A stretch of 64,000 nt of DNA from Hemileia vastatrix (lineage: Eukaryota > Basidiomycota > Pucciniomycetes > Pucciniales > Zaghouaniaceae), in NCBI GenBank assembly GCA_030280995.1, contig JASXTE010000001.1, positions 20,836,106 to 20,900,105 of the forward strand. Reading direction: 5' to 3'. The notes under the pieces were generated by a model. It made no database searches. It was given only the letters and a program-made list of their open reading frames with translations, and was not told where the DNA came from. Both the position numbers and the translations under genes were made by a program. Below are positions 5,871 to 42,992 of this stretch, piece by piece (the stretch's first letter is position 1; the number at the start of each line of letters is the position of its first letter).

Positions 5871-6420
5871 AATCATCAGGTAAGAGTTTCAGAAGCCTTA
5901 TTCTCTATATATGCAATAGGGGGTATCAATGTTGACCGATCCGCAATTAAATTTATTGCGGATAAAAATCCTTATACCCCAATTATCTTTCGCAATTATT
6001 TTTGCTAATAATTGGGTTATTAGACACTTTACGTGTCAATGTTTGCCTCTTATCCGACATTTTTCTACTCAATTTTTCATAACCACATCTTGGACAACTT
6101 TCTGTCATAACCACATGTTGCACAACTTTCTGCCATAACCACATCTTGGACTAATCTCTGGATATGTCTTCTACTTTGCTGCACACTCCTATCTTCATCC
6201 CATCCTGTTCATTCTATCTGCTCAGAATTTCTCCCCATTTCATCTATTTGATTCTGCTCCTTTTCATCTCACTCTCTCATCTGCTTTTTCTGCTCCTTTT
6301 CATCTCGCAATCTCATCTGCTTGTTTCTGCTCCTTTTAATCTTGCTATCTCATCTGCTTGTTCCTGCTTCTTTTCATCTTTAATTATCTTAACATTCCCC
6401 TTCATCATAGATCTTCTCAA

Positions 6421-7825
6421 ATGCAGCCATCAGCCAGTTGTTCTTCAAATCCCACTACTCCCTCTTTCCCCCACTCTGCTGAGAAATACAAAATTGTTCA
6501 ACTAAAGAAAGATGATCATCTCATTCTTATCAACTGGCTAAAAACTAAATCTAACTATGATTCTTGTTTTGGTACTGAGTATGCAACTAAAGTAGGACGG
6601 CCCCCCGCATCAAAAGTTAATGGTTTTCTTTGAATGGCCAACAAATTACAGAATAAGACTAAGGGAAGGATAGATCTTTTACCTAAACAGATGTCTGAAA
6701 GCTTCAAGCATTATTGATCCAAGTACAAGAAGGCAAAGACTCTTTCATCTTCTACTGTTTTTGGTATTACTGACCTCAATATCAGTAAGGGCATCAAATC
6801 CATAGATGATAAACTTGATTCTTTATGTCCTTACTTTAAAGAGATGGATTCTATTTTTGGTTAGTGAGCTGATGTTAATCCTACAAACATGTTAGATGGT
6901 GAAGATGCTATCTCCAAACATGATGCCAAAACAAATCTTTTTACTTATTCTTCTACTCAAGCCTCCCCTCATTTAACTTCCACAAATCAAGATATCTTTT
7001 CAATAGATCCTTATGGAGATATAAACCAACCTGATCTAACTCAAGTATGTTTTTTTTCTTTTATATTATCAATTCTTTTTTTATTTACATTTTCTTATTT
7101 ATAAATAGGCTGAAGAACTAATGCAGGAGCCACAATCAACTGAGTCAGAAGCCAGCGAAAATGAAGAGGTGGAAAATGTGACCTTGAAAAAAAAGCAAAG
7201 AGCTTCAAGTAGTCTGAATTTCCACTCTCAAAGAAGAAGAAAAAGTGATACTTCATCTCAAACCCCTTTTTCTTCTATCAAAGAGTTTTTGGAGAAACGT
7301 GATGCTGGTAAGTGATACCAAACCTATTAATACTTTACTCTGATTTTATTCTACTTTTTGTTGATATTTCTTATCAATCTAGAACAAGTGGAAGTTGCTA
7401 AAGAGACTCTAAAGTTTGAAAAGCAAAAATACAAACTTTCTTTAAGGAGGGATGACAGGGTACATGATTTGGAAGAGAAGAAGTTTGAAATATCTTCACG
7501 GAAGGATGATAGGGCACCAGAATTGGAGGAGAGGAAGTATTAACTTTCTTTACAGAAGGATGATAGGGCATAAGACTTGGAGGAGAGGAAGTACAGACTT
7601 TCTTTATGGAAGGATGATAGGGCTCAAAACTTGGAGGAGAAGAAATTCAAGTTATCTCTAAGTATTGAAAAATAAAAGATAGAGGTGAAAGCACTAGAGA
7701 ATCAAAACACCATGGAACAGATAAAATATAAGCTTGATTGTGAAGAAAATTCCAAAAAGAAAGATTTCTTGATAGAATGTGTTAAAGCTAATAAATCTGT
7801 TGAGGAAATTGAACGTTTGAAGTAA
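6421..7825 (+). pseudogene. Harb-1 companion protein (Myb/SANT-like with coiled coil)
   Basis: The frame shows a putative DNA-binding part (HLILINWLKTKSNYDSCFG, then a basic segment with LLPKQMSESFKHY, then KGIKSIDDKLDSLCPYFKEM), an acidic and serine-rich linker, and a C-terminal coiled coil ending KANKSVEEIERLK. Two introns fit (from about 7045 and from 7312), with GT-AG borders. The coil region 7430-7660 contains four or five ~60-bp tandem repeats encoding variants of DDRxxDLEEKKF. In-frame stops occur near 6630, 6715, 6862, 7541, 7571 and 7672. The same layout in Harb-2 and Harb-3 shows it is a standard partner of the transposase; by analogy with known Harbinger companions it would bind element ends and help nuclear import, which is inference. 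Confidence 0.72.
7430..7660 (+). repeat. ~60-bp coding tandem repeats in the companion coiled coil
   Basis: Four to five units, each starting around an AGGRAGGATGATAGGGC-type core and encoding a 20-residue block with DDR and LEEKKF/LEERKY. The equivalent part of Harb-2 (17990-18130) has three such units, so copy number varies between elements. Confidence 0.75.
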
Positions 7826-8029
7826 TTTCTTGATGACTAGTTTGTTTTATTTATCTTAAACTTCAACAGTTCATAAATAATTGTACATAAATTTTTATCT
7901 TAATTTCCTGTATTTTTTTACTCTATCCATCATTAGCTGAATTTTCATATTTTAATGTTATAAATTCTTTTTTAAATAAATTTTTCAAGAATTTTTAATG
8001 TTCAAAATTCTTTTTTAGTTTAAATTTTC

Positions 8030-8275
8030 AAGTCACCTTTGAAAATTTCCCAATTTCACCCCTGCATTTAATTGAACTAAGGGTCAGGTATCACCAAAAT
8101 TCTTTCAAGTAAAGAATTTTGCAAGTCTTATATGAAATTTCGGCAATACTCCCCCCTATATTTTATTGAAGTAATAGATGGGTATCATCAAATTTTCAAA
8201 TCAAATTTTTTTTAAAGTCTGATATGAAAATTTGGCAATACCCCCCCCTGCAATTTATTGAATCAAAGAAATCAA
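8030..8275 (-). repeat. ~80-90 bp tandem repeats between convergent genes (Harb-1)
   Basis: Three degenerate units with the core GGCAATACYCCCCCCTG, followed by TTTATTGAA and GGGTATCATC. The same unit is present at the same place, between the 3' ends of the Tet-like and companion genes, in Harb-2 (17070-17200), Harb-3 (39745-39975), Harb-4 (45780-45930) and the relic (4620-4750). Confidence 0.75.
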
Positions 8276-8289
8276 ATGGAAAAAGAAAA

Positions 8290-8655
8290 TTAAAATTGAA
8301 AATTTCTACAACCAATTATTTTCACCAGTCACAATCAAGTTTTCCTATTTTATATAATAGCCATTAGAACAACCTAAGGCCAGATGCACCATTATATAAA
8401 AAAGTAATCTATCTTGATGTAACGTTAAAAAATAATTGGAAGAGACAAATCCAAAATTAAAAGAAAAAAATTAAAATTGAAAATTTCTACAACCAATTAT
8501 TTTTTCCAGTCCCAATCAAGTTTTCCTATTTTATATAATAGCCATTAGAACAACCTAAGGCCAGATGAACCATTATATAAAAAAAGTAATCTATCTTGAT
8601 GTAACTCTAAAAAATAATTGGAAGGGACAAATCCAAAATTAAATGAAAAAAATTA
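8290..8655. repeat. Two ~182-bp tandem copies
   Basis: Copies at about 8290-8471 and 8472-8655 share TTTCTACAACCAATTATTTT, TTTCCTATTTTATATAATAG and AACAACCTAAGGCCAGATG with only a few differences. It is a recent duplication inside Harb-1, downstream of the Tet-like gene. Right of it, up to 8868, is a purine-rich AT stretch with nothing else recognisable. Confidence 0.8.
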
Positions 8656-8868
8656 AAAAGGATAAATAAAATTGAAAAAGAGGAAAATAAAAAGGGAAGT
8701 TTAAAAAAAATTAAAAAATTAAATTAAATTAAAATAAATAAAAAATTTAATAAAAGAGAAAAAAAAAGGAAAAATTTTTTGGAAGAAAATATTTAAAGAG
8801 AGAAAAAATATAATATTTTATTTGCAATACTTGACAGATCTACTAAGAACAATTTTTTTATCTAAATT

Positions 8869-10125
8869 TTATTTTTTTTGATTATTAATACGATTAATAA
8901 GACCTTCATTTATTCGGAATGAACAGCCAAAATGGGTAAATTCTTTTCAAGAAACTAAAGTTGGAGGTGCTTTAGTTGTTTGATGCCGGTGTTGAGAATA
9001 ATTACATATAGCCTCAACTATTTCTTTGGCACTACCAAAATCAATAATACATTTATGGTCAGGAAAAATAAAGGCCATGTCCCTCATCAGAAGAGGGTGA
9101 AGGAATAGGAACACCAGTCTCTGGATTAATATAAGAGAAAATTCCAAATGTTAGAGAATTTTCATCATGTTTATCTAGATGAACATGATTGTAAAATCCA
9201 TTATAAGTGATGATAACATTTGAACAAAAAACATAATCATTTATTGCTTCTTCCCATTCAGGATTGGACCAATTTGGTAAATCAGATTCTAAAGCAAGTT
9301 GATGGTTTTTTTGAAACGCTTGAAAACATAATTTTTTAAAAAGATTTTCCAAGAAAATATTAAATGATCCCAAAGAATTCCATTGTTTCAGATCTTCTTC
9401 CATTTGCTCTGGTTTCAAATTTTTCAATAAAGAATAAATTCATGAAATATATGACAAAATTAAAAATAACTTATAATAAAAAAAATTACATTTTAAAAGA
9501 AACTCCTTGATCATATCCTAGTTGACAACCAAAACATTTCATGAAACCAGAAATCAGATTTTTATTTGATAAGTGTTTTTAACCAAAGCCATTTGATAGA
9601 GAGTAAAAATTAAATCAGAAAGCTGGCAAAAAACTTCATCCTTTTTCCAATTAAATGAATGAACTTCTAAGATGAATTGAGGTTTGTATCCATTATTGAC
9701 AACTGCAAAAATGAGATATATACCACCTTCAGTAAGGTTTTTGATTTTTTTGTAAAAAAAAAAAATTCTTAAGATTTGATATTGAAGTCTTATAAAATTT
9801 GAGATCGTCCAAATGTCAAAAGAATGTTTTGCAAAATATCTTCATGCTAATAAATTTTCTTCATTGAATTTCTTGGTTCTTTAGCTGGTTTCATGATTTT
9901 CTGCTTTTTATTTTCTGGTAAGGAAAGCTTATATTGATTGGGAGAAGGAATTGAATTGAAGGACATTGAAGAGATGAAAGAAAGTAAAGATAAAGAATAA
10001 GAAGTTGAATATATTTGATGGTTATTCTTGGAGCTTTCAAGATTTGAAGACAAGGAAGAAAGTGAGGATAAAGATAATTCAGAAGAAATTGATGATAATG
10101 AAGATGAGCAAGTTAAATTTTCCAT
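8869..10125 (-). pseudogene. Harb-1 Tet-like 2OG-Fe(II) oxygenase
   Basis: A serine-rich N-terminus (10125-9847) leads into a decayed first exon whose remains include KPQFILEVHSFNW and CQLSDLIFTLYQMAL, matching the Harb-3 copy. The second exon (about 9440-8869) encodes the double-stranded beta-helix part: NPEWEEAINDYVFCSNVIIT, then YNHVHLDKHDENSLTFGIF with a HxD-type iron-ligand pair, GHGLYFS, HKCIIDFGSA, then HRHQTTKAPP and the C-terminal FTHFGCSFRIN. By family knowledge such proteins oxidise methylated bases or related substrates using iron and 2-oxoglutarate; here that is inference. Stops interrupt exon 1 and one TGA lies between the TTKAPP and FTHFG blocks; the acceptor before exon 2 is lost. 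The conserved His and Asp are still present. Confidence 0.75.
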
Positions 10126-10129
10126 AGTA

Positions 10130-10795
10130 ACGTCCTGGAAAAAAAAATTTATAAAACAAAAAAAATATAAATATAAAAATAAATATATTATAAATAATAT
10201 AACAATAAAAAATTATCAGTAAAATAGTTAAAAAGAAAAAAAAATTTGGTAAAAAAAAAACAAAAAAAAATTGCAAAAAAATCAGTAAAAAATTTTGAAA
10301 AAAAAAATTCAAAATAAAAACCTGAATTGTGATTGAAATACCAGGTAATATCCTAGAAAAAAAATTTCTAAAAAAAAAAAAAAAAAAGTTAAATAAATTG
10401 CAAAAAAATAAAAATAAATCCTGAAGGTTTTTGAAATACCAGATAAAGTTCTTGAATCAACAAACAAATTCACCACAAAAAAAAGAGTAAAAAAAAAATT
10501 AATATAAATTCAGTAAATTTAATTGCAAAAAAAAAAAATAAATAAATAAATTCTTACCTGCTATTGGAAATACTACTTGATTTCATTCAATCCAATTTAT
10601 TAAAATAAAATTTAAAAAAAAATTGAATTAAGTAAATTTCAGAACAATTAATTTTTTGCAAAAACAAACACAAATAAAAATAAATAAATTACCTGATTTA
10701 TCTTGGAAACAGGGGGAAATGTCCAGAAACTAAGGGAAAGAAAAAAAATTCTTAAAAAAAATTAAAAAGCAGAGATTAGTCTTTTTTTTCTTGCT
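10130..10795. other. A-rich non-coding stretch upstream of the Harb-1 oxygenase
   Basis: Long A runs (for example around 10370-10388 and 10520-10545) with ACCTGA-type blocks recurring near 10320, 10440, 10557 and 10692. No gene is visible; the position suggests a 5' untranslated or intron region of the minus-strand oxygenase gene. Confidence 0.4.
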
Positions 10796-10796
10796 T

Positions 10797-11445
10797 CAAA
10801 ATTCCCCCCAAAAAGTCCCCCCTTTGCCCCCTCAAACCCCCCCTTTAACCCCTCCTTGCCCCCCTCAAAACCCCTCAATCCCCCCTTTACCCCCCCTTTA
10901 ACCCCTCCTTACCCGCCTCAAACCCCCCTTCACCCCCCTTAAACCTCCCCTTTACCCCCACAGACTTGCTTTAAACCCCCCTTTACCCCCTCTTTACCCC
11001 CTCAATCCCCCTTTACCCCCCCTTTAACCCCTCCTTACCCACCTCAAACCCCCCTTTACCCCCTCCTTGGCCCCCTTAAGCCCCTCTTTACCCCCTCAGA
11101 AACGCCTCAAACCCCCTACACCTAACTTATCGAATCAGTAACAATTTGATAAGTTAGTGAACAATGGCTAACAATTTTTCACTAACTTTTTGAATTGGTA
11201 GTGGACAATCATTAGTTATTGTTCATTAACTTATCAAATCAATAGGGATTTGATAAGTAGGTCCTGGGGGGTGTGTGGAGGGGCTTGAGGGGGCCAAGGA
11301 GGGGGTGAAGGGGGGTGAAGGGGGATTTGAGAGGGGGGGTTGAGGTGGGAAAGTAGGGATTAGAGGGGGGAGTTGAGGTTTCCAAGAAGGGGAGAATGGG
11401 AGGTATGGAGGAAGACAAGGAGGGGGAAAGGGGGATGATGGAGGG
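10797..11445. repeat. C-tract / palindromic core / G-tract block (Harb-1)
   Basis: On the plus strand 10797-11115 is a dense series of CCCCC and CCCCCC runs separated by TTTA, TCAAA or TTAA. A core of inverted and direct repeats follows (11120-11262, ACCTAACTTATC at the left and GATAAGTAGGT at the right, with TAACTTATCAAATCA-like units between). Then 11263-11445 is a series of GGGGG runs. The arrangement mirrors Harb-3 at 37410-38035 although the sequences differ. Both flanks meet the run criteria for G-quadruplex formation, on opposite strands. Confidence 0.8.
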
Positions 11446-11625
11446 TGAAAAAAAAGAAAAAAAAAGATAAAAAAGATAAAACAAAATAACAAAATTAGTC
11501 TAACCTTAAAAACAAAAAAATCACTTACAGGACAAAAAATAAAGAAAAAAAAAAGACAAAAAAAAACAAGAAAAAATAAATTATTAGCAAGTAAAAAAAT
11601 CAAAAATAAGAAAAAAATGACTTAC

Positions 11626-11764
11626 CTGGAGAGATGAGATGAGAAAATAGATGAATTGAAAATATTTGATGGATGTTTGAGGAGAGGAGAAAATGTATAT
11701 GAGGGATGAATGGAAAAATGAAACAGTGAAAAATTATGCAATTGCAGAAAATATGTGATTTCAT
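11626..11764 (-). other. Conserved spliced segment with ATGAAATCACATATTTTC (Harb-1)
   Basis: A 139-nt segment starting at a conserved ATG preceded by TCAG-CTCAAC (a possible splice acceptor) and ending at a perfect donor, CTCTCCAG then GTAAGTCATTT. Equivalent segments with the same start and donor lie at 15033-15171, 37093-37233 and about 47811-47944 (minus). Length varies by 2 nt between copies, so it may be an untranslated leader exon rather than coding. Confidence 0.6.
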
Positions 11765-11941
11765 GTTGAGCTGATGAAATTAAACAAATGAGACATCCAA
11801 AAAATAGAATTGACTGAAAATTCAAAATTTTATTTATGCAAAAAAAAATAACCAACACAAGTGAATAAAACATGGAGAATTAAAATAACACAAGTGAAAA
11901 AAACAAGGAAGTTGAAAATTGGGAGAGTGCAAAAAAATAAT

Positions 11942-13418
11942 TTAAAAGGGTGGTGAAGATAAATGTTGGAGAGTAATAGGAATAATGTCAGAGTGTATTC
12001 CGGTTGAATGAATGATATGTGATTCAAGGGAAGGGAGAGCTGGTGCTAGTACAGGATCCTCTTCTTCATAAAGATCATTCCACTCATCCTTTAAATTAGC
12101 TAGGATATTGTGGAGTATAACACAGTTCATAATCCAATGATTTGCAGTTTTGATTTCCATTTTTTTTGAAATTGGATTCTGAGCTCCTGGAGACTAGAAA
12201 ATCTTCCCTTTAAAATCCCAATAGCACATTTAGTCCATACTCTTGATTGGACAAGGTGATAATTAAAGGTGGTTTTGGGGTCATTTTCTATAGTTGCACC
12301 ACAGAAAGCAGGTACAATGTACTTTCCGCTTGCATATGCTGAGTCTGCAAGGAGGTACTGGGATTCATCAAAGTATGAGTCAGGAGTTTGAGAAATCCTC
12401 ATTCTTTGGAAGAAAAAAGAGTCATTACATGAGCCAGGGCAGCCACTATGAAAAGCAATGAATTTTTTATTGACATTGCATACAAGTTGAACAGCAATAG
12501 AGTATCTAGAAAGAAGGTAAAAATTCAGTTTATGAAAGATGTGAAATTGGAGAACATTTTGAAGAAACCTTTTTTTGAAATCAAAATAATGGTTACCATC
12601 ATGAGCAGGCTTTTGACTCAAAGGTATAGTTGTACCATCAACAAATCCTACACATCCAGGGAAACCTTCAGCTTACATTACTTGAGAGGATTCACCATGC
12701 AATATGGGGGGCGGACTTGCTAGCGAGTCCGCAACCTTGGACCCAAACTCACCACAGATTGAGCACACATTGAGCTATTGATAAAGGAACCATACAATCA
12801 GGGATGAACACCACTCAGCAGAACAGTTTTAGGTGGGTGTCCAAGTAGAGTTCAGCATGAGTTCAGTATGAGTTCAGTCTGAGTTCCATCTGAGTTCAGG
12901 TTGAGGACTTGCTAGCAAGTCCACCCCCTATATTGCGTAGTGATTCAAGTCGCTGTTGTGGTGTTGGCCAAGCAAGTGTTTGAGACTTGAGGGAAAGGAT
13001 GGAAATCATGAAGCACTTGGTGTATAATATAACCATCCCATATCCTATGGTAAAGAGATTTTCCAAACATCTTACAGCAGCACCATTTCCATTTGAGCCA
13101 AAGGGACATAGTGCAACAGCAAGTTGAATAGCAGGATCACACTGATTATTTTGAGAATTGTTATAGAAGATAGGATTTTTGGAGATGAGTTGATAAAGTT
13201 TGAAGAAAAAAATTGGGAGAAGTTCTAAATAGTTGAGTGAATTTTAGTTGAGGAATGTTGAGAATGGAGCAGAGATCATATCTGGGATCATGATGAAGAT
13301 TTGGCCCCCTTGGGTTTATGTAACTCTTTTTGGAAAGAAAAGACATATAGGCTAAAGCATCTTCCAAATCAGAGTCTGTTTTATAGTAAAGAACTAAAAG
13401 TAAAGCAATAGCATTCAT
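11942..13418 (-). pseudogene. Harb-1 PIF/Harbinger transposase (DDE)
   Basis: The N-terminus MNAIALLLVLYYKTDSDLED matches the start in Harb-2 and is followed by an alpha-helical region. The catalytic region has GFPGCVGFVDGTTIPL (first Asp), GCPGSCNDSFFF, LLADSAY (second Asp), then SRVWTKCAIGILKGRF, where Harb-3 reads SRVHIEHSIGILKGHF; the catalytic Glu is thus Lys (codon AAA). An intron splits the gene after FDFKK (donor GTTTCT near 12555, acceptor TTTCTAG near 12512). The C-terminus, in another frame, runs ILHNILANLKDEWNDLYEEE to LQHLSSPPF and stop at 11942. Defects: two adjacent stops near 13160, a TAG shortly before GFPGC, a 223-bp MITE (12706-12928), and a frameshift near 12165. Confidence 0.85.
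12706..12928. mobile_element. 223-bp MITE inside the Harb-1 transposase
   Basis: Flanked by a TAT target duplication (12703-12705 and 12929-12931). Terminal inverted repeats are GGGGGGCGGACTTGCTAGCG on the left and, reversed, GGGGGTGGACTTGCTAGCA on the right. The interior has no coding capacity but contains five ~11-bp units of GAGTTCAG type at about 12850-12900. The 3-bp duplication and G-rich ends suggest mobilisation by a Harbinger transposase. Confidence 0.88.
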
Positions 13419-13944
13419 AGTTGAGTGAAGTAGCTACCTAGTAGAGAGGTGTTTCATAGTTGTTGGTGGAAGGCTTATGTGATGAGGGAAGTGGGAATTC
13501 ACTGCCAAATGTGTAGTTGGGGTGTGTAGATAAAAAAAACTTTAAGTGTTCTCCACCAAAATTAAGTAGCATAAAGTGAGAAAAGACTTAAGGATGGCAT
13601 CAGCAATTATAATTCATGTGACTTTCTTAAAAATACATCATGGATGTGATGAATTTGGGATCAGTAATTAGGAATGTAAATTGGTATATAAGAGGCAGGA
13701 TAATGCATTATTGTGGATTCCTTATCCACTAGCCCCAGGGCTAGTGGGTATAAATCTTCTGCAATTAATAATTTATGATCCCTAGAAAAAAAATTCTTGA
13801 TACCTAATAGAAGATCAGTCAACTTTGACACCCCCTAATATGTATAAATTCTTAAATATCTGGATATTTATTAATTCTAATCATATTATCATATTAATCT
13901 TTGAGTTACTCATGTTGTGAAAGCTAAAAAATATTAGTACTTAA

Positions 13945-14157: not shown

Positions 14158-14158
14158 C

Positions 14159-14190: not shown

Positions 14191-14191
<1 letters not shown>

Positions 14192-14672
14192 GGGGGTATC
14201 AATGTTCAGGGATCCGCAATTAGGGATCAGGAATTTTCCCGGGATCAGACATTATTAATTGTGGAAGATTCTTAACCACTAGCCCCAGGGCTAGTGGATA
14301 AGAAATTCACAATAATGCATTATACCACCTCTTATACCCCAATTTCTGTTCCTAATTCCTGATCCCAAACTCATCACATCCATGATTGATTTTTAAGAAA
14401 GTCACATGACATATAATTGTGGATGCCATCCTTATGTATCTCATCACTCTATGATACTTAATTTTGGTGGCAAACACATAACATTTTTTCTCATCTTTAT
14501 GTGTCTCTTTACTCTATGATACTTAATTTTTGTGGCAAATACATAACTTTTTTTTCTATCTACACACCCCATCTGCTCATTTGGTGGAAAATTCCCACTT
14601 CCCACTCATCACCTAAACCTTATATGAACAATAGTGAAGCACCTCTCTACTAGGAACCAACTTCACACAGCT

Positions 14673-14892
14673 ATGAATTCCATCACTTTAGTTTTAACTG
14701 CTGAATCTGACTCTGACACTGGGTTGTAAGACACTTTAGCTTATATGTCTTTTCAATGATCTTTATGAAGAAGAGGATCCCAGACCTGCACCAGCTCTCC
14801 CCTCCCTTGAATCAAAAAACATTCTTTCCACCAGCATACACTCTGTCATTATGCCAACCACCCTCCAACATTTTGAAACACAACCCTTTTAA
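14673..14892 (+). pseudogene. Harb-2 transposase, internally deleted
   Basis: Starts MNSITLVLTAESDSDTGL, like the Harb-1 N-terminus, and after a TAG continues DTLAYMSF. At about 14757 it jumps directly to the C-terminal NDLYEEEDPRPAPALPSLES and LQHFETQPF with stop at 14890-14892. The whole catalytic domain (about 1.2 kb compared with Harb-1) is missing, so no activity is possible. Confidence 0.8.
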
Positions 14893-15032
14893 TTTTTTTC
14901 ACTCTCCAAATTTTCAACTTCTGTGTGTTATTCACTTGTTTTGGTGTTTTTATTTTTCATATTCATTTTTTTTAATTTACACTGAATGTCTCTTTTTTGG
15001 ATGTCTCATTTGTTTTCATTCTCCAGCTCAAC

Positions 15033-15171
15033 ATGAAATCACATATTTTCTGCAATTACATAATTTTTCACTGTTTCTTTTTTTAATTCATTCCTAATAT
15101 CCTTTTCCTCTTCTCCTCCAACATCCCTCAAACAATTTGGTTTCATTTATTTTCTCATCTCATCTCTCCAG
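15033..15171 (+). other. Conserved spliced segment (Harb-2)
   Basis: Begins ATGAAATCACATATTTTCTG after a TTCTCCAG-CTCAAC acceptor-like site and ends CTCTCCAG before GTAAGTCATTT. Same length (139 nt) as in Harb-1. See also the second conserved segment ending with ATCAAG before GTAAGC at 15536, which in one frame reads LKHIHFTFFMHFTYSIF and has a near-identical counterpart in Harb-4 (about 47435-47550, minus). Confidence 0.6.
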
Positions 15172-15689
15172 GTAAGTCATTTTATTTATTTTTTTGATTT
15201 TTTGATTTCTAAGTATATTTTTTTTGTTTTTTGTTCTGTTTTTTCATTCTTTTTTGTATCTAAATTTTTTTAAGCGGTTATTTTTGATTTTTATTGTAAA
15301 ATTAACCTTTTTATCTCTCCCTCCTTTCTTTCTTTTTTAGCTCCATCACCCTACTCATCATTTGCCTTGGCATGGCCATTATCCCCCTCTATCCCCTATT
15401 TCACTTTTTGTTGGTTCCATGTCATTAAAACACATACATTTCACATTCTTTATGCATTTCACTTACTCCATATTCAATTTCTCCCAAATTCCAACATCAT
15501 TCTTTCTTGCTCTATTTTTCCTACTTTTTAATCAAGGTAAGCTTCATCTCCTTTTTTTATAACTAAATGATATCTCTTTCCTTCTATGAAAATTTCATAC
15601 TTAAGTATATGCATGACTCTTATCTGGATAACAGTGGACTTATTAAACTCTTCTTGTTCTCATCTCCATTACCACTTTTCAAGTTTTTG

Positions 15690-16335
15690 TAAGATTTTTA
15701 AAATCAGACTTGGAATTAGGGTTAGGTTTATTAGAATCTAATGTTCTTTTTACTAAAGTTTTTCCTGAAGGCCACCTTTCAATTCCCACAAAAAGATTTG
15801 AATTTGGTTCAGTGGTTGCTGAGATATTGACCTTTAAATTTGAGCCTTTTTTTCCCAATTTAATTTATTTTTATTTCATATTTTTATGTAATAAATTAGG
15901 GTTAGGTTTATTTAAATAACATTTCCTTAAAATGAAGATTCTCCTGAAGCCTATATTTCATTTCCTACAAACTTGTTTGAATTTGGTTCTGTGGTCGCTG
16001 AGATTTTGACCTTAAAAGTTGAGCCTTTTTTTCTGAATGTTACTTAATTTATTTTATCTTTTTATATTGCATAATTAGAGAACAAGGCTTCTGAAAGTCT
16101 TATCTGATGATTTTCTAGGCTTATATCTCCATTATGTTGGAATTTTATTGTCAATTTTCAAATTTTTGTGCAATTTTGAAAATCAGAGTCAAAATTAGGG
16201 TTAGGTTAATTCAAATCTTATTTTCTTTTTAGTGAAGATTCTTCTGAAGCCAATCTTTCATTTCCCATAGATGTATTTGAATTCAGTTTAGTGATTTCTG
16301 AGATATTGACCTTTAAAGTTGAGCCTTTTTTCTAA
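15690..16335 (-). repeat. Three repeats with TTAGGG-like motif (Harb-2)
   Basis: Three partial copies of the ~300-bp repeat seen at 5271-5870, in reverse. Each has ATTAGGGTTAGG, then a TTTGAATTTGGTTCAGTGGT-type block, GCTGAGATATTGACC and GTTGAGCCTTTTTT. They lie immediately 5' of the oxygenase remnant. Confidence 0.8.
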
Positions 16336-16351
16336 ATTTTATTTAAATTAT

Positions 16352-16725
16352 TTCATGTTTAGACCAGGGTTTGTTAAAGGCTATTCTCTTGGTATGTCTG
16401 ATACTATATGTTTCATTCTTAAAATTGTGTCACTCATTTTATTTCCATAGGCAGCTATTATTTACTTAGAAAAAGCTTCTCAAGTTCATCACCAAACAAC
16501 CAAAGCTCCACCTGGCTTGGAATCTTGTCAAGAGTTCACACATTTTGGATGTTCATTTCAAATAAGTCAAAAATTAATCCACAGAATAAACAAGGTAAAA
16601 AGACAAGGTAAATTTAACAAATATAAAAAAACTTTAAAAATCCTGTTAAAAATTTACTCACTTTGGCTGTTCTTTTCAAATCAATAGGGAGCTGGTCAAT
16701 AGGATTGATAAGGTATGAGAAAAAG
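16352..16725 (+). pseudogene. Harb-2 Tet-like oxygenase, catalytic core deleted
   Basis: Exon 1 end RPGFVKGYSLG (16352-16391) is followed by a GTATGT...CATAG intron and exon 2 from 16451, whose first residues then run, after a deletion and frame change, straight into VHHQTTKAPPGLESCQEFTH and FGCSFQISQKLIHRINK. Compared with Harb-3, about 130 residues including the HxD region are missing. A second, separate FTHFGCSFQINRELVNRID block follows at 16655-16715, so two C-terminal modules lie in tandem. Confidence 0.75.
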
Positions 16726-17069
16726 TTGAGGACAAAAAACATTAAATAGAAAGAAAAAGCATGGGGTGTAATATAGTTTTTCAACTTTTATTTTTTTCAC
16801 AAATTAAAATTTTACAAGTCATATATGATACTCTACTTACCTAAATTAATGAGCCATTGGCCATGTGTTATATAATGGTAATCATGAGGAAATTTGTTTT
16901 TCTCATGAGGTTCATGTATGCATTTGTGTTTGATTTCATTGAATTTGGTCAAGGACAATTTCCACTCAAATTTTTACTTGAATTGTCATTAATTTAGGTT
17001 TTTAAATTATCTTATAAGACTTTTTTACATGCTAATTTATGCAATGAACATAAATTTTGGCAATCTATG

Positions 17070-17200
17070 CCCCTACTTCAATAAAACACAGGGGAGGGTA
17101 TTGCCATTTCTTTTGTCATAAATTTTTTTCTGACTTAGAAAAAAAATGGTGATCCCCACCTCCTGTTATGGTAAATAGCAGGGGAGGGTATTGCCAAAAA
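17070..17200 (+). repeat. Convergence-zone repeats (Harb-2)
   Basis: Two units with GGGGAGGGTATTGCCA and GACTTAGAAAAA, equivalent to the repeats at 39745-39975. The zone 16730-17070 before it holds only the conserved non-coding spacer of these elements. Confidence 0.75.
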
Positions 17201-31177: not shown

Positions 31178-31195
31178 CACTGTTGGGACACCAAT
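31178..31195 (-). promoter_or_regulatory. RetroA primer-binding site
   Basis: In element orientation the sequence after the 5' LTR is TTGGTGTCCCAACAGTGG, beginning TGG as required for pairing with a tRNA 3' CCA. The tRNA species cannot be decided by eye. Confidence 0.65.
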
Positions 31196-32549
31196 TTTAG
31201 AAAGTTCTAAGGTACTAAGAAGTAGACACAATGTGAGATGGGTTGGTTCTTCTTTTCAATTTCTAAAAAAAGAAGCTCCTGCCACTCTTATTTTAAAGAC
31301 AGCGCAATAATGTGTAATACTAATATCTGACTAGATAGTTTATAAGTTGAGAGATAAGTTAAAAGATAAGTAAAAACAAATATTACTATCTGGATATTTC
31401 TATTCTTAATAAGTGCTATTATGCACAGCTACTCCCTCATGAAGCACTCTCTTTGAATATGCCTTATTATAGTAATAAAATGACTCTAATAATAGTTTAT
31501 CCTACTGAATCTATATATTCTATCTGTGTTGTGATTTTTCACTATACTATATGAAATACACACACAGAAGCACAAACTCTAAAAGACTCAAAATATCTCT
31601 GATATGTTCTTTAACACTTAATTGAAAAAAAAATCCAATTTCTTACTGTTATCAGAGTAACCACAAAAATAGACAAATTACTATATATCACAATATATTT
31701 TGAAAGTATATAATATGAGGCTCTAATTTTTGTAATCTAATAACTGATTTGAATAATAATTTTTTTACCTAACAACTACTCCTATTCCCATTAGATAGCC
31801 TTTCCTTCTTATATTTTTGAGCACTCCAGACACAGTTCCCTAGTGGATCTCCAGTGCTGTCGCTAGCACCACATTAGTAGAACAATAACTAATCCATTAG
31901 TAAACTAAATACACCTCTTGTAACAACTACAGTGCCTAAACATACCCTATTCTTACTTAAACTAGTATTAACTTGTTTCACTCATGTTCCACATGCATGA
32001 TTATGACTGTACCTTGCATTGTTTCAGTGCTACTTCCCATGTTGACACCTTTCAGCGCCGATCCTTGTCTCTTTGACTCTTGGGTGTTTTTTTTTGTGAT
32101 CAAGTCCCAATCCTCCTTGCTTCATTACTAAGTCCATAGTTCTGACAATTCACTAACTAGTTAGCCTATGCAAATTACATTACCTGTTTCAGTAAGTTAA
32201 CACACTAGCTGCTGTGCAGTATACTATGTACTTGAGGCCTTCCTTAAGCCATAATTCTTTCCTTAACACATAAAACACAATTATTGGAAAATTCAAATCC
32301 ATAATGTTCAGCACTTGCACTCCTAAGTTGATAACACATAATTCCCTTTGTGTGGCACATCTTGCTGCAAAATCCAAGCGCACAGACCCTAAATCCTCTT
32401 CTGTGCTTCTCTTTCCCTTTGTTCTTTTAAAAACATAATCAAATATTTATAATGGTGCTATCTACAGCACTATGATTCCCCTTTTCTCTTCCTGGGCTAC
32501 ACAAGCTGATTGGTCCAAAAGACAAGTAACCTGCAATGCACGTACCACA
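31196..32549 (-). repeat. RetroA 5' LTR
   Basis: Runs in element orientation TGTGGTACGTGC to CTTTCTAAA; the last dinucleotide has mutated from CA. 1354 bp, same length as the 3' LTR. Confidence 0.9.
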
Positions 32550-32668
32550 ACGTAAAAGTCTAATAACCCAATTATTAGCAAAAATTATTGCAGAAGATAC
32601 TTGGGGTATAATGATTTTTATCCACAATTAATTTAATTGTGGATTGTTCAGTATTGATACCCCCTATT

Positions 32669-35373: not shown

Positions 35374-35560
35374 AGGGGGTTTCAGTTCTGGCAAATCCGC
35401 ACTTACAAATCCGCACTTAAATTTGACCAAATCCACACTTATCTAAGTGCGGATTTCCAAAACACACTAGCCCCAATACTGGTGGATTTCAAAATGAAAT
35501 AAGTCACTTATTTCACTCAAATCCGCACTTTCTCAACCAAAAGTGCTGATTTCACCATCA
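35374..35560. repeat. Subterminal AAATCCGCACTT motifs of Harb-3
   Basis: The 12-bp motif AAATCCGCACTT and its complement occur at least five times with small changes in the first 190 bp, and again near the other end (41845-41895). Repeated subterminal motifs are typical binding sites of transposase or companion protein. Confidence 0.7.
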
Positions 35561-35681
35561 AGTCCCATTTCACTGATTTGTCAGCATCATCCCATTCATA
35601 CACAGCACTCCGTAGCATAACACTTCATAACTCAAAACATCATACATCATTTACATCTTCATATCATATCATATAAGAGTT

Positions 35682-36947
35682 ATGCCTTCCTCACTTTCAA
35701 ATTGTGATAAATTACATAAAGCAATGACTTTCATGGCTCTTGAACTGCTCTTGGACTCTGATTCCAATTCTGATTCTGATATAGAAGAAGATTTTGTCTT
35801 TTTATCAAAAATGGCCACAAAACGTTACCTTCTTCCCAGAAAGCCTCAAGTACTTCATACCCCCAAGTACACCATCCAAACACTTCTTAACCTATCTACA
35901 CCCAGTTTTAGACAGCTGTTCAGGACTTCTCAGGAATGTTTCCTTAAATGGCTTGAGATTATTCAGGATCATCCCATATTTCACAATAATTCTCAAAAAG
36001 AACAATGACATCCTTCAATTCAATTGGCCATCACTCTATGTTGTTTGGGTTCAAATGGTAATGGAACCGCTTTGAAACGTTTAGAAAATGTCTTTGATTT
36101 AGGGTATGGTTCAGTTAACACTTATACCAAACAATGTATCACTGCCATCAACTCCTTGGAATATCAACTTCTCACCTGGCCAACAAAAGAAGAGCAACTT
36201 GAATCATCTCAGGTTATGCAAGCAGAGGGCTTCCCAGGATGTATTGGTTTTGTTGATGGTACTACTATTCCTTTGAGCCAGAAACCTGCTCAAGGTGGAA
36301 ACAATTACTTTGACCGTAAAAAGAGGTAGATTATTTTTAACTGCTTTCATTCTCTTTGAAACTAAAACAAACAAATATATCTTCTTTATAGATATTCAAT
36401 TTCTGTTCAGCTTACATGTGACTTAAACAAAAAATTTATATCATTCTTCGCTGGCTATCCTGGCTCATGTCATGACTCCTACGTCTTCCAAAGAATGCAA
36501 ATTTCAAATGAACCTGAAAAATTCTTTGATGAAGATCAGTATCTTCTTGCAGATTCTGCTTATGTGAATGGAAATTATGTACTTCCTGCTTTTTGGGGAG
36601 CAGCTTCAGAAGACAGTCAAAATTCCAAGCTCAACAATCATTTGGCAAAGTCAAGAGTCCATATTGAACATTCTATTGGAATCTTGAAAGGCCATTTTTC
36701 TAGTTTAAGGGAATTAAGAAGTCCTCTTAGAAATAAATCGGAAATGTAGGTGGTGATAAACTGGATTCTGTGTTGCACTATACTTCATAACCTACTTGCT
36801 GACCTCAAAGATCAATGGTTAGAGCTGTATGAAGATGAACAAGTTGATTCACCTCCGACTATATCCAACACTTTTATTTCTCAATCAACTAGTATAAGGG
36901 CAAAAATTCTTCCAATAACACTCCAACATTTTTCAACACAATTTTAA
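35682..36947 (+). pseudogene. Harb-3 PIF/Harbinger transposase (DDE)
   Basis: Starts MPSSLSNCDKLHKAMTFMAL. The N-terminal helical part is followed by GFPGCIGFVDGTTIPLSQKP (first Asp), an intron (from about 36327 to 36391, after DRKKR), GYPGSCHDSYVFQRM, LLADSAYVNGNY (second Asp) and SRVHIEHSIGILKGHF (Glu), so the DDE triad is complete. The tail ILHNLLADLKDQWLELYEDE runs to PITLQHFSTQF. Only two stops break it: TGA at 36006-36008, where Harb-4 has CAA, and TAG at 36747-36749. It acts in the nucleus on element ends by family knowledge. Confidence 0.88.
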
Positions 36948-37092
36948 TTTTTTTTTTCATTCTCTTCAAATGATCAATTTGCATGTGTAATTCACTGAGA
37001 ATGGTAAATTTTTTTGCATATTTTTTTGGTTTTTGAATTTGCTGTTAAAGTCTTTTTTTTTATCTCTCTGTGTTTTCTTTCATCAACTCAAC

Positions 37093-37233
37093 ATGAAATC
37101 GCATATTTTCAGCAAACGCATATTTTTTCAGTCACTCTCTTTTTTTTCTTCACTCATATCTGTTTTCTCCTCTCTTCCTACATCACTCAAACAATTTCAC
37201 TTATATTTCTTTTTTCTCAACTCATCTCTCCAG
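37093..37233 (+). other. Conserved spliced segment (Harb-3)
   Basis: ATGAAATCGCATATTTTCAG to CTCTCCAG before GTAAGTCATTT; 141 nt, open as 47 codons rich in Phe and Ser. It is conserved in all four elements, but two copies are 139 nt, so the reading frame is not preserved and a leader-exon role is likelier. Confidence 0.6.
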
Positions 37234-37409
37234 GTAAGTCATTTTATCTTTTTTACTTAATTTTTTGTTAATTTTTTTTTGGTTTTTTGGGTTTTTGTTT
37301 TTGTTTTTGTTTTTTTTTTTTTTGTAAGTGGTTTTTTTTAAATTTATAGGTAAAATTAACCTTTTTTTTTCTCTCTCTCTCTCTCCCTCTTTTCTCTCAT
37401 TTATCCTAT

Positions 37410-38035
37410 TCTTTATCCCCCCTTGGCCTGGGCTTTTTCCCACCATTACCCTCTCCTTGGTATGGATACATCCCCCTTTTCCATCCTTTAGCTGCCTTAT
37501 TCCCCCCTCCTTGGCTCACTCTAACCTCCCTTTTCTCCATCTTTGGTCTCATCTCTCCCTTTCTCCCCCTTGTTGGTGTCCTCATTTCCTCCCCTCATTC
37601 CTCTCCAACCCCCCTCCAAATCCCCTGAATCCCCCCTCCAAATCCCCTCCAAACCCCCCTCCAAACTCTCCCAATCACCCCCTCTAACCCCCCTTCCAAA
37701 CCCCCCTTCAATCCGTTCCTATCCCCCCCTCAAAAACTTCCTACCCCCCCCCCTCAATGTTCCTTAACGATTCATTAGTGAATTGTTAAGGAACATTGAG
37801 GGGGGATAGGGGGGTTTTGAGGGGGGGTTTGGAGGGGGGGGGTAGGGGGTGTTAGGGGGTAATGGAGGTGGATTGAAGGGGGGGTTGGGGGGGTTGGAGG
37901 GGGTTTGGGGGGGATTGAAGGGGGGTTTGGAGGGGGGTTTGGAGGGGTTTAAAAGGGGATGTGAATAGTTTGGAGGGGGGGTTGTACAAGGGTTTTGAAG
38001 AGGTGGGAGAGGGGTTTGGAGCTGGGAATTTAGGG
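37410..38035. repeat. C-tract / palindrome / G-tract block (Harb-3)
   Basis: C-rich runs at 37410-37754, then a 44-bp near-perfect palindrome (37755-37798, arms CAATGTTCCTTAACGATTCA with one mismatch, loop TTAG), then G-rich runs at 37799-38035. Beyond the palindrome the two flanks remain roughly complementary as C versus G runs. Located between transposase and oxygenase, as in Harb-1. Confidence 0.85.
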
Positions 38036-38254
38036 GAATGGGGAAGTGATAAAAAAAATTTCACAGTTTTTTGATTTTTTTTTTGATTTTTTTCAATTTT
38101 ACAGAAAAATATTCATCAAGTTCAAGTGAAATAAAAAAATTCTTATTAGTCTTTTGAGGATTTTTATTTTTTTAATATAAATTAAGTGAGATTTTTTTTT
38201 AATGTATAATTTTGGGTGTTTGAAAAGTAACAACACCCAAAAGTAGGAAAATAC

Positions 38255-39442
38255 ATGTCTTTAACTTCAGATTCACCACTTACCTCACTCTCATCTTCTT
38301 TAACTTCATTATCATTTTCAAATTCAACTTCTTTTCAATCATCATCTAAAACATTGACAAAAAATGAACAGTATCAAAATAAAAGAAATTTAAAAAAAAA
38401 TTCACTTGGATCAAATATTTGGCCATATTTTCAAAAATCAAGTACTATAAAACTAAAGTTGAAAAAAAAACAATATCCAAAAACATTACCTGAAAATATA
38501 CATTATTTAACTGAAACTGGAGGTGATGAAGTTAAAGTTGTTATTAATAATACTTTCAAACCTCAAGTTATTTACGAAAACCATTCTTTTAATGGTTTAA
38601 AAGATGAATCATTTAATCAACTCTGCGATCTCATCATAACACTCTATCAAATGGCTTTGGTTTGCTTACCTTTAAGGAATAAGAATTTTTTGGGTGGAAT
38701 CATGATTGGTATTTGATGGAGACCAGGATTTGATAAAGGTTTCTCTCTTGGTATGTTTAAAAATTTTTCTTGATTTTTTAATATCATTTTACTGAATTTA
38801 ATTCAAATAGGCATATATTCTTTACTCAGATCTTTATCTAAAGCTGAATTAGATAATGATTTTCAAAAATGGAATACTTTACCTTCATTTAATTCATTTC
38901 TTGCTCTTCAACTTAAAAAACTCTGTAATAAAGCTTTTGAAACAAATCATGAAGTTGCTACAAGACTTGGAATACCAAATTGGTGCAACTCTGAATGGGA
39001 AGATATTAGCAGTGATTATCTCATGTTTTCAAATGTTATAATCACTCATTCTGGATTTCATAACCGAATTCACACCAACTCAAATGATGCCAATTACCTC
39101 ACTTATGGAATTTTCACATATATTAATCCTATCACTGGACAACCTATTCCATCACCTGCAAAAATTAAAGGACATGGATTATATTTCTCAGATCATAGAT
39201 GTATAATTGATTTTGGATTAGGAAATGGAATCATCGAAACAGTTTGGAATTCTTCTTACGATAATCGCCAAACCACAAAGGCTCCTCCAGGTTTGGAATC
39301 TTGTCAAGACTTCACGCATTTTGGTTGCTCTTTCCAGATCAGTCAAAAATTAATCCAACAAATAAACAAGTTAAAAAAAGAAGAAAAAGGTAATAAATTT
39401 AAAAATTCTTTAGGTAGATCTAAAAAGTATGAGGATTCATAG
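38255..39442 (+). pseudogene. Harb-3 Tet-like 2OG-Fe(II) oxygenase, one in-frame stop
   Basis: Two exons, 38255-38750 and 38811-39442, joined at phase 1 (GTATGT donor, CAAATAG acceptor), give 375 codons with a single TGA at 38714-38716. Features in order: serine-rich N-terminus, IYSLLRSLSKAEL, NWCNSEWEDISSDYLMFSNV, then GFHNRIHTNSNDANYLTYGI, GHGLYFSDHRCIIDFG, and RQTTKAPPGLES with C-terminal FTHFGCSFQISQKLI. The layout fits the Tet-like 2OG-Fe(II) oxygenase family known in rusts. The HxD position reads HTN here (HTD in Harb-4, HLD in Harb-1) and the HQTT position reads RQTT, so two likely metal ligands are lost. It sits between transposase and the tandem repeats. Alternative: a different beta-helix oxygenase. 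Confidence 0.78.
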
Positions 39443-39744
39443 AGTCACCAAATATTTAATATTCTTCCATAAATTTTTAATAAATAAATATGATATTTCA
39501 ATTTATGAAATTAAAGTAATGGGCCAATGACCATGTGTTGTATAAAAGGTAATAATGATAACATTAATTTGTTTCATGGGGTTCCTCTAGCCTATACCTG
39601 TGGAAAGTCCCAAACCTAGTTTCTAGACTTGATCTGCATTTTGGCATGAGGAATTGTCATTACTTTAAAAGTAGTAAATTTTACATATCTCATTTATATA
39701 TTAATTAATTTATGTAATTATATTAAATTTTGATGACTTTCACC

Positions 39745-39975
39745 CTTTACTTCAATAAAATGCAGGGGAGGGTATTGCCAGTTTTTTAAATCTGACATGT
39801 GAAATTGATGACTTAGAAAAATTTGGTGGTACCCACCCCTTGTTTCAATACAATGCAGGGGAGGGTATTGCCAATTTTTTAAATCTGACATGTGAAATTG
39901 ATGACTTAGAAAAATTTGGTGGTACCCACCCCTTGTTTCAATAAAATTCAAGGGGAGGTATTGCCAAATTTTCAA
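39745..39975 (-). repeat. Three 81-bp tandem repeats between convergent genes (Harb-3)
   Basis: Units contain GCAGGGGAGGGTATTGCCA, then AATCTGACATGTGAAATTG, GACTTAGAAAAATTTGGTGG and ACCCACCCCTTGTTTCAAT. The repeat length is a multiple of three, which creates a spurious open frame. They lie between the ends of the oxygenase and companion genes. Confidence 0.88.
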
Positions 39976-40254
39976 AAGAGATATTGAATTTTATTGACTT
40001 AGAAGTATTTAGATAAGCAAACTTATTGACTTGAAAGTAAAGATAGAAAATTTTTATTATATTTTCAAATTTTTGTCAAAATAAAAGTATAAGCAAACTT
40101 ATTGACTTGAATGTAAAGATAGAAAAATTGGATGATATTTTCAAAAATTTGTTGAAAATAATGTACTATATTCAAGACCTTTTATAAGTCAGCATGTAAA
40201 AAAATTTTATCAAAAAGAAATCAAAAAAATTAAATTAACTAGAAAAACAATTTA

Positions 40255-41571
40255 TCAATTGAAAAGGTCAAGTAATTTTTTAATTTCCTCATAAGATTGG
40301 CCATTTTTTACACATTCCATAATGAAATCTTTTTTTTAAAAACTCTCTTGTTTTTCCAATTCACAAGTAGCCATTTCTCTTTGAAATTGACGGTCATTGA
40401 CTCTTTCTATCTGCTCTGCCTCAAATTTTTTTTTCTTCCAAATCTAAGGCTTGCTGATCTTTCCTTAGCATATGATCAAACTTCATCTTCTCAAAGTCAA
40501 GGGCATTTTTTGCAATAGTTGATTTTTCTGAGAAAATTAAATTGAAATATATAAATAAATGAGTTAATGATTAAGATATATAGTAAACAAATCTTACTTA
40601 TATCTTTTTTTTTTCAAAATAATCCTCAAGGGAGCCAAATGAGCTTGTTGAAGTATTACCACATTTTAATAGATGGTTCAAGTTCATTGAAGTTGAGGCT
40701 TGACACTTTAGTTTGGAGCTTGAGCAAGAGGCTTCAGGAAGTTCATCTAAAGCAGCTTCTAAAGTGGGATTCACATTTCCAGAATCAAGATTATTTAATG
40801 GAGATTGAGTTTGAGTAGGAGGAGACTAGAATGAAAGAGAAATTCAGAGAAGAATTGAAGAAAAAACAAAAAGTAAACATACATTTAAATTTTGGGCCTC
40901 TGAGGATTCAGATCTGCTGCAATATAATTGTTCTGCTTGATACTTGGGATCATCTTCAGCTGAACTATGGTTAGAAGGTGGAGGGGATTGATCTCCTTCA
41001 AGTAAAGGTGTGTTGGGAGGATTATAGGAAGGTTTGGATCCAGAGGGTATATCCTTAGTAGTATTGTGTAGAAACCAAGGGTTTACATCAACTCGGGAGC
41101 CAAAAAGATTATCCATTTCCTCATAGAAAGGACACATGACATTGAGCTTTTCGGAAACAGTAGTAATTCCAATCTCTAAATCATCATCGTCAATACCAAA
41201 GCCAGTTTCATTTGCAGCATGATGAGCCTTTTTATATTTTGATTGGTAACTCTTAAATCTCTCCTTCATTTGTTTAGGATTGATATCAATTCTCCCCCTT
41301 GTTTTCTTCCTTACTTCATTGGCCATCAATAAGTAGCCATTAACTTTTTAAGAAGATGGATGTCCAATACGAGTGGACTTTTCACATCCAAAACATGCTT
41401 CAAAATTTGATTTTATTTTAAGGAAGTTGATTATGATGAGATAATCATCTTTTTAAGCTGACCTGAACCTGACTTTGATTTTTCAGGTGTAGGGCTTGCT
41501 TTACGAGGAGACTTTTGTGACAAAGCAGATTTTTGAGTTCCCTTTTGAGATTTGGAATGTCTGGGAGGCAT
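40255..41571 (-). pseudogene. Harb-3 companion protein (Myb/SANT-like with coiled coil)
   Basis: Starts at 41571 (MPPRHSKSQKGTQKS), a Lys/Ser/Pro-rich basic tail, then LIIINFLKIKSNFEACFG, DINPKQMKERFKSYQSKYK, LEIGITTVSEKLNVMCPFYE and FGSRVDVNPWFL. A linker with acidic and Ser/Pro residues follows; introns are likely after NLN (41329-area frame, GTATGT donor near 40880) and near 40600. The C-terminal coil has ALDFEKMKFDHMLRKDQQAL and DLEEKKFEAEQ and ends NGQSYEEIKKLLDLFN. One stop interrupts the DNA-binding part (near 41355) and one the coil (near 40340). The coil lacks the 60-bp repeats of Harb-1. Confidence 0.75.
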
Positions 41572-42992
41572 TATTAAACTGGCACATAACAAGAAAAAAG
41601 ATTAAGAGGTAGAATTAATAAGTAAAAAAGAATGTAAACATGCCTGGTCAAAATGTTGAAAATGTCAGGAAGGGGTGTGTGCCAAGGATTGATGGGTAGG
41701 TAGTGAGGAAGGTCAGTGTATCACATGCGATAGGGATGATGTGGCCAACATGTGGTTTTGAAAAAAAAATCACGAAAAAAGTGCTGATTTGAGGTCAGAA
41801 CTGACACCCATTTTTGAAATAAGTGACTTTTTTTCAAAATTTAAGTGCTGATTTGGTTTGAAATCCGCACTTAAGTTAAGTGTGGATTTGCCAGAACTGA
41901 CACCCCCTAATGTATCCCCCTGATTTACCAGTCTTATACACGGCTTATAATGCCTCATTCTAGCTAATAAACCTGTCCATCAACATAAAGAATGATATCA
42001 CCAGCCAAAATCCTGGAGTAATAGATATAATCCATCAAAATAAAATAATAAGCAAAAAAGAGAGTATATGCATGTATCATCTTAAAATAAAAGACTAAAA
42101 AAATAAAGAATAACACTAAATATTACACAATATTAAGAGGAATCAACAGTAGAAATGATGGGGCTAATTATTCCAAATTACCATGTGAAATCCCCATCCA
42201 AAAATGGCTGAGAGACCACTGAGAAACCCAAAAAAGGATGTGAGATGTGGGGTAACTGAATGCAGTCCTTGGAAGGCTCTTTCACAGGTATTTCCTTGAC
42301 TAATTTAGGCAAAATTAAGTGTGGTAGTGATTTTTTTGGTGCCAAGTTTGAAATGATAAGTGAAATTAGTGCATATAATAAAGCGCCTGTCACCTATTTT
42401 AGTGTGTTTTCCCATACTTGGCATAGAATTTGGGGTAATTATAGTGTGTAAAAACTAAATTTTCTAAAAATGAAGCTATTCACACAGGAAAAATGCAGGC
42501 AGTATGTGGCCAGTACACAGAAGCCATTTCTGGCATAAGAAACACCAAATTTGAAAAGTTTTATTTTTATGCATTTTAGTAGCCAAATCAATAGTCCTAA
42601 TTAAGACAAATTGAACTATCAAGGTTCATTTTTAATATTATTTAATTTATGGTTCATATCTTCAACTTTTAAGTGATTTAAAGTGCATTTCTTGTTTTTC
42701 ACATAAAATAATGGAAACAACAGCTTTAAGTCTACTTAAAAATTATATAGCCTTATTTTTAAGGTTCTTAAGATTACCCTAGCAAATTCCAACTTAATAT
42801 TAAGTACATAAGACTTATAAAAGATGGATATATGCATGTATATAAGGTGTTATAATGGCATATATTGTATTTTATCATAAATTTCACTTATGTATACAAC
42901 TTGTGTACCTTTATTGTTCCCATGTATAGTACATGTGTTTAACATAATTTATAAATACTTTTCACTCAGTCCTGGGAATATCCAGGCTGAAA

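Follow-up and report, generated by a model that had tools for sequence, protein, structure and literature searches.

Harbinger-type transposons with a Tet-like oxygenase, perhaps exchanged between families, in the rust Hemileia vastatrix

A stretch of 64,000 nt of the Hemileia vastatrix genome (assembly GCA_030280995.1, contig JASXTE010000001.1, positions 20,836,106 to 20,900,105; hereafter the window, to whose full length all position numbers refer) raises the question of why a DNA transposon carries a gene for a Tet-like 2-oxoglutarate- and iron(II)-dependent (2OG-Fe(II)) oxygenase. The window has a GC content of 33.5% and holds four Harbinger-type elements, Harb-1 to Harb-4, all with inverted ends AGGGGG..CCCCCT. 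One kind of end motif was found eight times where 0.79 matches were expected by chance, and the other kind five times where 0.01 were expected; one of the eight matches, at 30554, lies within a long terminal repeat (LTR) retrotransposon and is not an element end. We consider it probable that these are TET-bearing Harbinger-type (PHIS) transposons of the kind named PHISTA, in which a selected and perhaps exchanged oxygenase helps the element to escape silencing.

In Harb-1 and Harb-3, a PF13359 transposase is followed on the same strand by a PF20515 oxygenase and then by a convergent companion gene. Harb-1 (5918..13836, minus strand) has a decayed family A backbone, with terminal inverted repeats (TIRs) at 5918-5949 and 13805-13836. 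Its transposase (11945..13433, minus strand), oxygenase (8900..10127, minus strand) and companion gene (6421..7825, plus strand, with stops) are all interrupted; the oxygenase retains the ligand triad H/D/H and belongs to a divergent lineage near that of L040, a copy sampled elsewhere in the genome. Harb-3 (35374..41908, plus strand), of family B, has imperfect TIRs of ~67 bp. It contains a transposase interrupted by stops (35683..36944, plus strand), an oxygenase (38255..39442, plus strand, intron at 38751-38810) and an interrupted companion gene (40300..41577, minus strand). The Harb-3 oxygenase has an in-frame stop in exon 1, and two of its iron ligands are gone (H/N/R, not H/D/H). Harb-2 (family A, 14191..32665, plus strand) follows the same order in remnants only, namely transposase pieces (14674..14889, plus strand), 86 of the 209 exon-2 residues of the oxygenase in two pieces (16364..16640, plus strand) and an interrupted companion gene (17750..19110, minus strand). 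It is disrupted by a nested LTR retrotransposon (19339-32549, LTRs 91.6% identical), and a deletion at 14754/14755, with transposase pieces on both sides, leaves it without 1.26 kb of Harb-1 sequence, including most of the transposase; ~0.25 kb of this is an insert private to Harb-1. The original prediction of three elements of two families with one gene order therefore holds for Harb-1 and Harb-3, but Harb-2 reduces the full gene sets to two.

Harb-4 (44780..48531, plus strand) is a chimera with family B ends. It had been described as rearranged parts of the same set; it contains the 5' part of a family B transposase (45089..45721, plus strand, 96% to Harb-3) and an inverted oxygenase of family A type (46230..46860, minus strand, triad H/D/H, two stops) close to the family A copies (dS 0.11 to the sampled copy L019), but no companion gene was found in it. 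The element sits 121 bp downstream of the 5' LTR of a retrotransposon (43420-56518) with LTRs of 1,239 bp that share 99.27% identity. Because this host retrotransposon is young, Harb-4 probably moved recently in trans, though defective; alternatively, it could have been carried along inside the LTR element. A fifth oxygenase is present as a 3' remnant to the left of Harb-1 (4637..5188, minus strand).

Copies elsewhere in the genome were counted in the same assembly (747,610,610 bases in 791 contigs). The perfect family A end, AGGGGGTRTCAATG, occurs 8,564 times (4,295 + 4,269), against a single occurrence of a reversed-pattern control. Copies were sampled from the first 100 listed ends, all on contig C2, as 14 convergent pairs less than 10 kb apart (28 ends) together with 18 from the 72 ends outside these pairs; sampling by perfect ends favors younger copies. 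Ten pairs were long (5.5-8.4 kb), and all ten contained a transposase (partial in L009) and a companion gene, with an oxygenase in eight. The remaining four, short ones of 0.42-1.0 kb, contained neither oxygenase nor companion, and the transposase matches of L016 lay only at or beyond its edges. Four of the 18 single ends had both transposase and companion, all with an oxygenase (L023, L024, L032 and L036); three had an oxygenase and one partner (L026, L027 and L040, the perfect end of the last perhaps belonging to a short neighbor); and 11 had no oxygenase. Altogether, the oxygenase lay between transposase and companion in 12 of the 14 sampled copies having both; the outcome that the original prediction had named as counting against itself, absence of the oxygenase from most copies, thus did not arise in this sample. 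A transposase word was present in 14 of 14 tested copies and occurs 2,305 times in the genome. Seven short sequences of ~0.2-1.0 kb with family A ends (L010, L014, L016, L020, L028, L029 and L031) are likely non-autonomous derivatives.

The oxygenase matches PF20515, and the H-x-D ... H ligands of TET/JBP enzymes are present as H/D/H in 10 of the 15 sampled oxygenases. The modeled core is a double-stranded beta-helix of the 2OG-Fe(II) type; 2OG oxygenases, including CMD1, a relative of TET, align to it with modest scores, and the different fold that had been named as a second adverse outcome was not found. The 50 structural matches listed did not include NgTET, CcTET or human TET2, which excludes nothing. 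By sequence, no credible relative of solved structure was obtained (one search gave no match and another gave three spurious ones). All oxygenase relatives with a named source organism are rust proteins, and a tree of 22 rows unites the Harb-1, Harb-3 and Harb-4 oxygenases in a single clade (99/99). In Puccinia sorghi, a single gene model, VP01_2598g6 (P0015), has a DDE_Tnp_4 stretch, below the cut-off, directly before a PF20515 oxygenase.

The transposases belong to the Harbinger/PHIS type: PF13359 (DDE_Tnp_4) scored above the cut-off in Harb-1 and Harb-3, and the open 406-aa frame of L015 matched with an E value of 4e-26. The Harb-1 transposase has Lys at the position where Harb-3 has Glu, which we take to be the third catalytic acid. 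Myb_DNA-bind_4 was detected below the cut-off in three companions (E values 0.0014, 0.0054 and 0.0097), with a weak match in that of Harb-3, and no match was found in the shorter companion pieces scanned. No companion homologue at E <= 0.001 was found in the protein database (13 candidates, Harb-3 piece), no credible relative of solved structure was found by sequence, and comparison of a model with a predicted local distance difference test score (pLDDT) of 54 gave no useful fold match.

The sequence between the genes also has recurrent features. Long C-rich and then G-rich tracts, partly inverted repeats, lie between transposase and oxygenase in Harb-1 (10797-11400) and Harb-3 (37416-38060). 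Tandem units of ~93 bp with GGGGAGGGTATTGCCA were found at 39725-40003, between the 3' ends of oxygenase and companion, and similar stretches occur near 4640-4790, 8040-8270, 17040-17200 and 45780-45930. An insert resembling a miniature inverted-repeat transposable element, with ends like GGGGGGCGGACTTGCTAGC, lies in the Harb-1 transposase at ~12695-12941; the same end also borders the insert that takes the place of the oxygenase in L015.

The set of genes is mobile as one unit. Identical 3-bp flanks border all four window elements (AAT for Harb-1, ATT for Harb-2, AAT for Harb-3 and ATT for Harb-4); separate target duplications had been claimed for the first three, but the flank of Harb-2 lies inside an (ATT)n run and is uninformative. 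Identical 3-bp flanks were also found in 12 of the 14 sampled pairs and in seven of 10 further copies. A common 3-bp flank was thus present in 23 of 28 copies (P = 5e-4, under a null in which the middle base matches at one half), these being the four window elements, the 14 pairs and 10 singles whose partner end had <=2 mismatches, with three-mismatch partners and those outside the start excluded. The copies without one are L014, L015, L024, L038 and L040. All four window copies have AAT or ATT on both sides, following the pattern ANT; the sampled exceptions are L036 (ATA/ATA), L038 (ATG/ATT), and L024 and L040 (ATA on one side). A TA duplication can also be read in all four window copies, but AWT followed by the terminal A likewise yields TA, and the flanks of L036 are unreadable as TA. 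The motif AyTAyT makes up 3.9% of the TA sites of the window, and three of three informative copies fit it (6e-5). These flanks favor a target duplication of 3 bp (AAT/ATT) over one of TA.

Is the oxygenase maintained in these elements? Between lineages, the ratio of nonsynonymous to synonymous substitution rates (dN/dS) of oxygenase exon 2 was 0.10-0.31 in eight comparisons (dS 0.57 to saturated). In five close pairs, it was 0.33-0.87, as expected from decay after insertion. Measured against Harb-3, the transposase gave 0.10-0.21 (four comparisons) and the companion 0.19-0.22 (three comparisons, with one more not computable). The other transposase comparisons with computable ratios gave 0.35-0.60 at dS >= 0.14 and 0.90-1.99 in the closest pairs. 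The oxygenase thus seems, from its substitution pattern, to have been kept by selection.

We also compared the histories of the three genes. In L019 versus Harb-1, dN and dS were 0.141 and 0.40 for the transposase and 0.085 and 0.34 for the companion, but 0.357 and 3.1 for the oxygenase. Versus Harb-3, L019 gave 0.299 and 2.2 for the transposase and 0.357 and 1.7 for the companion, but 0.133 and 1.3 for the oxygenase. The eightfold difference in dS is otherwise hard to explain, which argues for separate histories of oxygenase and backbone. In the transposase tree, Harb-3 and Harb-4 are split from the 18 others (100/100). The oxygenase tree, which included seven outgroup rows and left out Harb-2 and Harb-4, places Harb-3 and 14 genomic copies together (98/98), with Harb-1 and L040, both of which have family A backbones, outside this group. 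Simple divergence of the three genes together was considered, as protein identities between families A and B are alike (transposase 59% and oxygenase 54%, both Harb-1 versus Harb-3; companion 51%, Harb-2 versus Harb-3), but it was rejected on the conflicting distances to the genomic copies. An oxygenase that moves between families as a module, independent of transposase and companion, is therefore indicated, although not proven; the divergent oxygenase in the family A backbones of Harb-1 and L040 and the family A oxygenase in the family B element Harb-4 would be examples of such swaps.

The elements have decayed at CpG sites. The observed-to-expected CpG ratio was 0.10-0.31 in the elements and 0.23 in the whole window. 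Between the ends of Harb-3 and Harb-4, C/T differences were found at 11 of 31 CpG sites and 15 of 453 others (P = 5e-8), and between the LTRs nested in Harb-2 at seven of 16 CpG sites and 43 of 410 others (P = 0.001). The same lean, given here without a significance test, was seen between the companions of Harb-1 and Harb-2 (4/6 versus 36/205) and the oxygenases of Harb-3 and Harb-4 (8/12 versus 56/207), and the young LTR pair showed no C/T differences of this type (0/4 and 0/50). At the codon of the iron-binding Asp, the 15 sampled oxygenases read TCGAT in seven, TCAAT (Asp to Asn) in five and silent TTGAT in two, with another sequence in L040; the site is CCAAC in Harb-3 and CCGAT in Harb-4, and Harb-1 has no CpG there. 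We infer that the change ran from Asp to its loss. According to the trees, the five losses may represent three events (L013; L023 and L024; L018 and L026). Kojima 2025 (PMC12730594) cites TCG as a context for hypermutation in rusts.

These observations can be brought together in a mechanism. On the DNA of the transposon, the oxygenase would oxidize 5-methylcytosine or another base related to it; this would relieve silencing or keep the transposase sites accessible, and the element would amplify. CpG methylation and C-to-T mutation would wear the copies down and eventually destroy the iron site of the oxygenase itself. A fuller picture, whose merits we regard as evenly balanced, is that within this one rust genome, the oxygenase is an exchangeable Harbinger module that selection maintains, that passes from one family to another, that gives way in some copies to unrelated DNA and that is caught in an arms race as CpG decay removes its catalytic Asp codon, and that PHISTA elements make 3-bp ANT duplications like Pangu.

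Several results weigh against the proposed explanation. All copies in the window are broken. Oxygenase-bearing copies are CpG-depleted too (ratios of 0.10-0.31), and the oxygenase therefore gave no lasting protection. The oxygenase model has a mean pLDDT of 65.6; its best Foldseek E value was 0.019 (no match at E <= 0.001), and vitamin-K carboxylase chains led a list of matches whose Z scores did not exceed 6.8. dS was saturated in several comparisons, and whole-tree tests failed to reject congruence of oxygenase and transposase, with P = 0.155 for a single clade of the family A backbones and P = 0.246 for a grouping of Harb-3 and Harb-4. The N-terminal exon of the oxygenase was found in seven of the 15 sampled oxygenases and was not recognizable in eight, where this part was either replaced too or undetected. 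Finally, two of the 14 copies with transposase and companion, L015 and L022, have other DNA in place of the oxygenase. An obligatory oxygenase is ruled out by these two copies, and the gene, predicted to be a standard one, is standard only in the sense of 12 in 14, a term weakened further by the eight oxygenases without a recognizable N-terminal exon and by the relatives without TET (TET-) described in Kojima 2025. L015 and L022 are 95-96% and 97% identical to L019 on both sides of an unrelated middle of 1.9-2.0 kb, in which four scanned frames gave no Pfam match above the cut-off. A word from this insert occurs 340 times in the genome and lies 1.6-1.8 kb downstream in five of 100 listed transposase-word places on C2, read by eye; eight of 13 insert places in that C2 stretch have no listed transposase word alongside. 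With so many places apart from the transposase word, the insert looks like part of another repeat. A first look gave 19,465 candidate relatives of the L015 transposase, and the 102 scored were 98-100% identical, 97 of them without an internal stop. They are a recently amplified family, and so amplification without the oxygenase, or with help in trans, is possible.

Some of these results favor a captured passenger with no role in the life cycle, whose frequency would reflect amplified oxygenase-bearing founders: an oxygenase-free backbone 95-97% identical to that of L019 and largely intact L015-like transposases fit it, and Kojima 2025 terms TET transfer between transposons passive. A passenger is disfavored by oxygenase dN/dS values that stay low over several lineages, like those of transposase and companion against Harb-3, and we regard it as unlikely. 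Somewhat less unlikely is an enzyme whose substrate is not 5-methylcytosine but 6mA, thymine or RNA, or which, like CMD1, attaches a larger group, and which marks element DNA for the transposase rather than lifting silencing. The oxygenase sequence is distant from TETs of known structure, the model has CMD1 in its list of structural matches and Kojima 2025 leaves room for another activity, but CpG-biased decay makes 5-methylcytosine the likeliest modified base present, and nothing here suggests another. By contrast, it is very improbable that the oxygenases are host genes or parts of other transposons, into or beside which Harbinger copies inserted by chance. An oxygenase remnant does adjoin Harb-1 on its left (4637-5188) and nesting is common in the window, but in copies that inserted independently, most of them with the same 3-bp flank on both sides, the gene lies inside both inverted repeats, between transposase and companion and in the orientation of the transposase; for copies with both ends recovered, chance insertion is already refuted. 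We retain the escape of TET-bearing PHIS transposons from silencing as the preferred explanation.

The association of TET genes with Harbinger elements is not unreported: it is already described in Kojima 2025. According to that paper, rust Harbinger elements with a transposase, a TET/JBP dioxygenase and a third protein form PHISTA (15 families in six species), TET- relatives cluster with TET+ elements, TET has been transferred between transposon superfamilies, and the same escape from silencing is proposed; its tree places PHISTA near Nuwa with weak support. Like PHISTA of Puccinia and Austropuccinia, the elements studied here have a PHIS-type DDE transposase, a PU-type TET/JBP gene and a third protein in a host of the Pucciniales, and PHISTA oxygenases cluster by host genus, as those of the window do among the 22 rows. 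By contrast, the available part of that paper does not name the genus Hemileia, reads a TA duplication where 3-bp AAT/ATT fits better here, and reports no Myb/SANT domain in the third protein, whereas the companion here gives weak Myb_DNA-bind_4 matches. That part gave no sign of an oxygenase exchanged among Harbinger families of a single genome on matched backbones, nor of an Asp codon lost where it lies at a CpG, and a literature search that did not extend to supplements and subscription journals found no report of such exchange. Pangu (Han et al. 2015, PMC4482050), as far as its available text goes, resembles our elements in its ANT duplications, a stated hallmark, in ends starting with AG or GG and in the length of its inverted repeats (11-40 bp, with 32 bp for those of Harb-1 and Harb-2); its second open reading frame has no known motif in one passage and a Myb/SANT motif in another. 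No oxygenase was encountered in that text, and the likeness noted is one of ends and duplications. KDZ transposons with TET/JBP in basidiomycetes (Kyakuja, Dileera and Zisupton, as given in Kojima 2025) likewise combine a DNA transposon with a TET-family gene, but have a transposase of another superfamily and duplications of 7-8 bp. The kind of element is thus already known; what is added here is an indicated exchange between families, the low dN/dS of the oxygenase between lineages, a better reading of the duplication as 3 bp and the loss of the Asp codon, which often lies at a CpG. The observation that opened this study is partly confirmed and its interpretation partly supported.

If the 3-bp reading is true, the definition of PHISTA by TA duplications would need revising. 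More broadly, TET genes carried by transposons provide a natural test of whether mobile elements fight DNA methylation with enzymes of their own. Backbone-matched copies that have the oxygenase, lack it or have lost an iron ligand stand side by side in this genome, and the anti-silencing idea could be put to a direct test by comparing methylation, transcription and age among the three classes.

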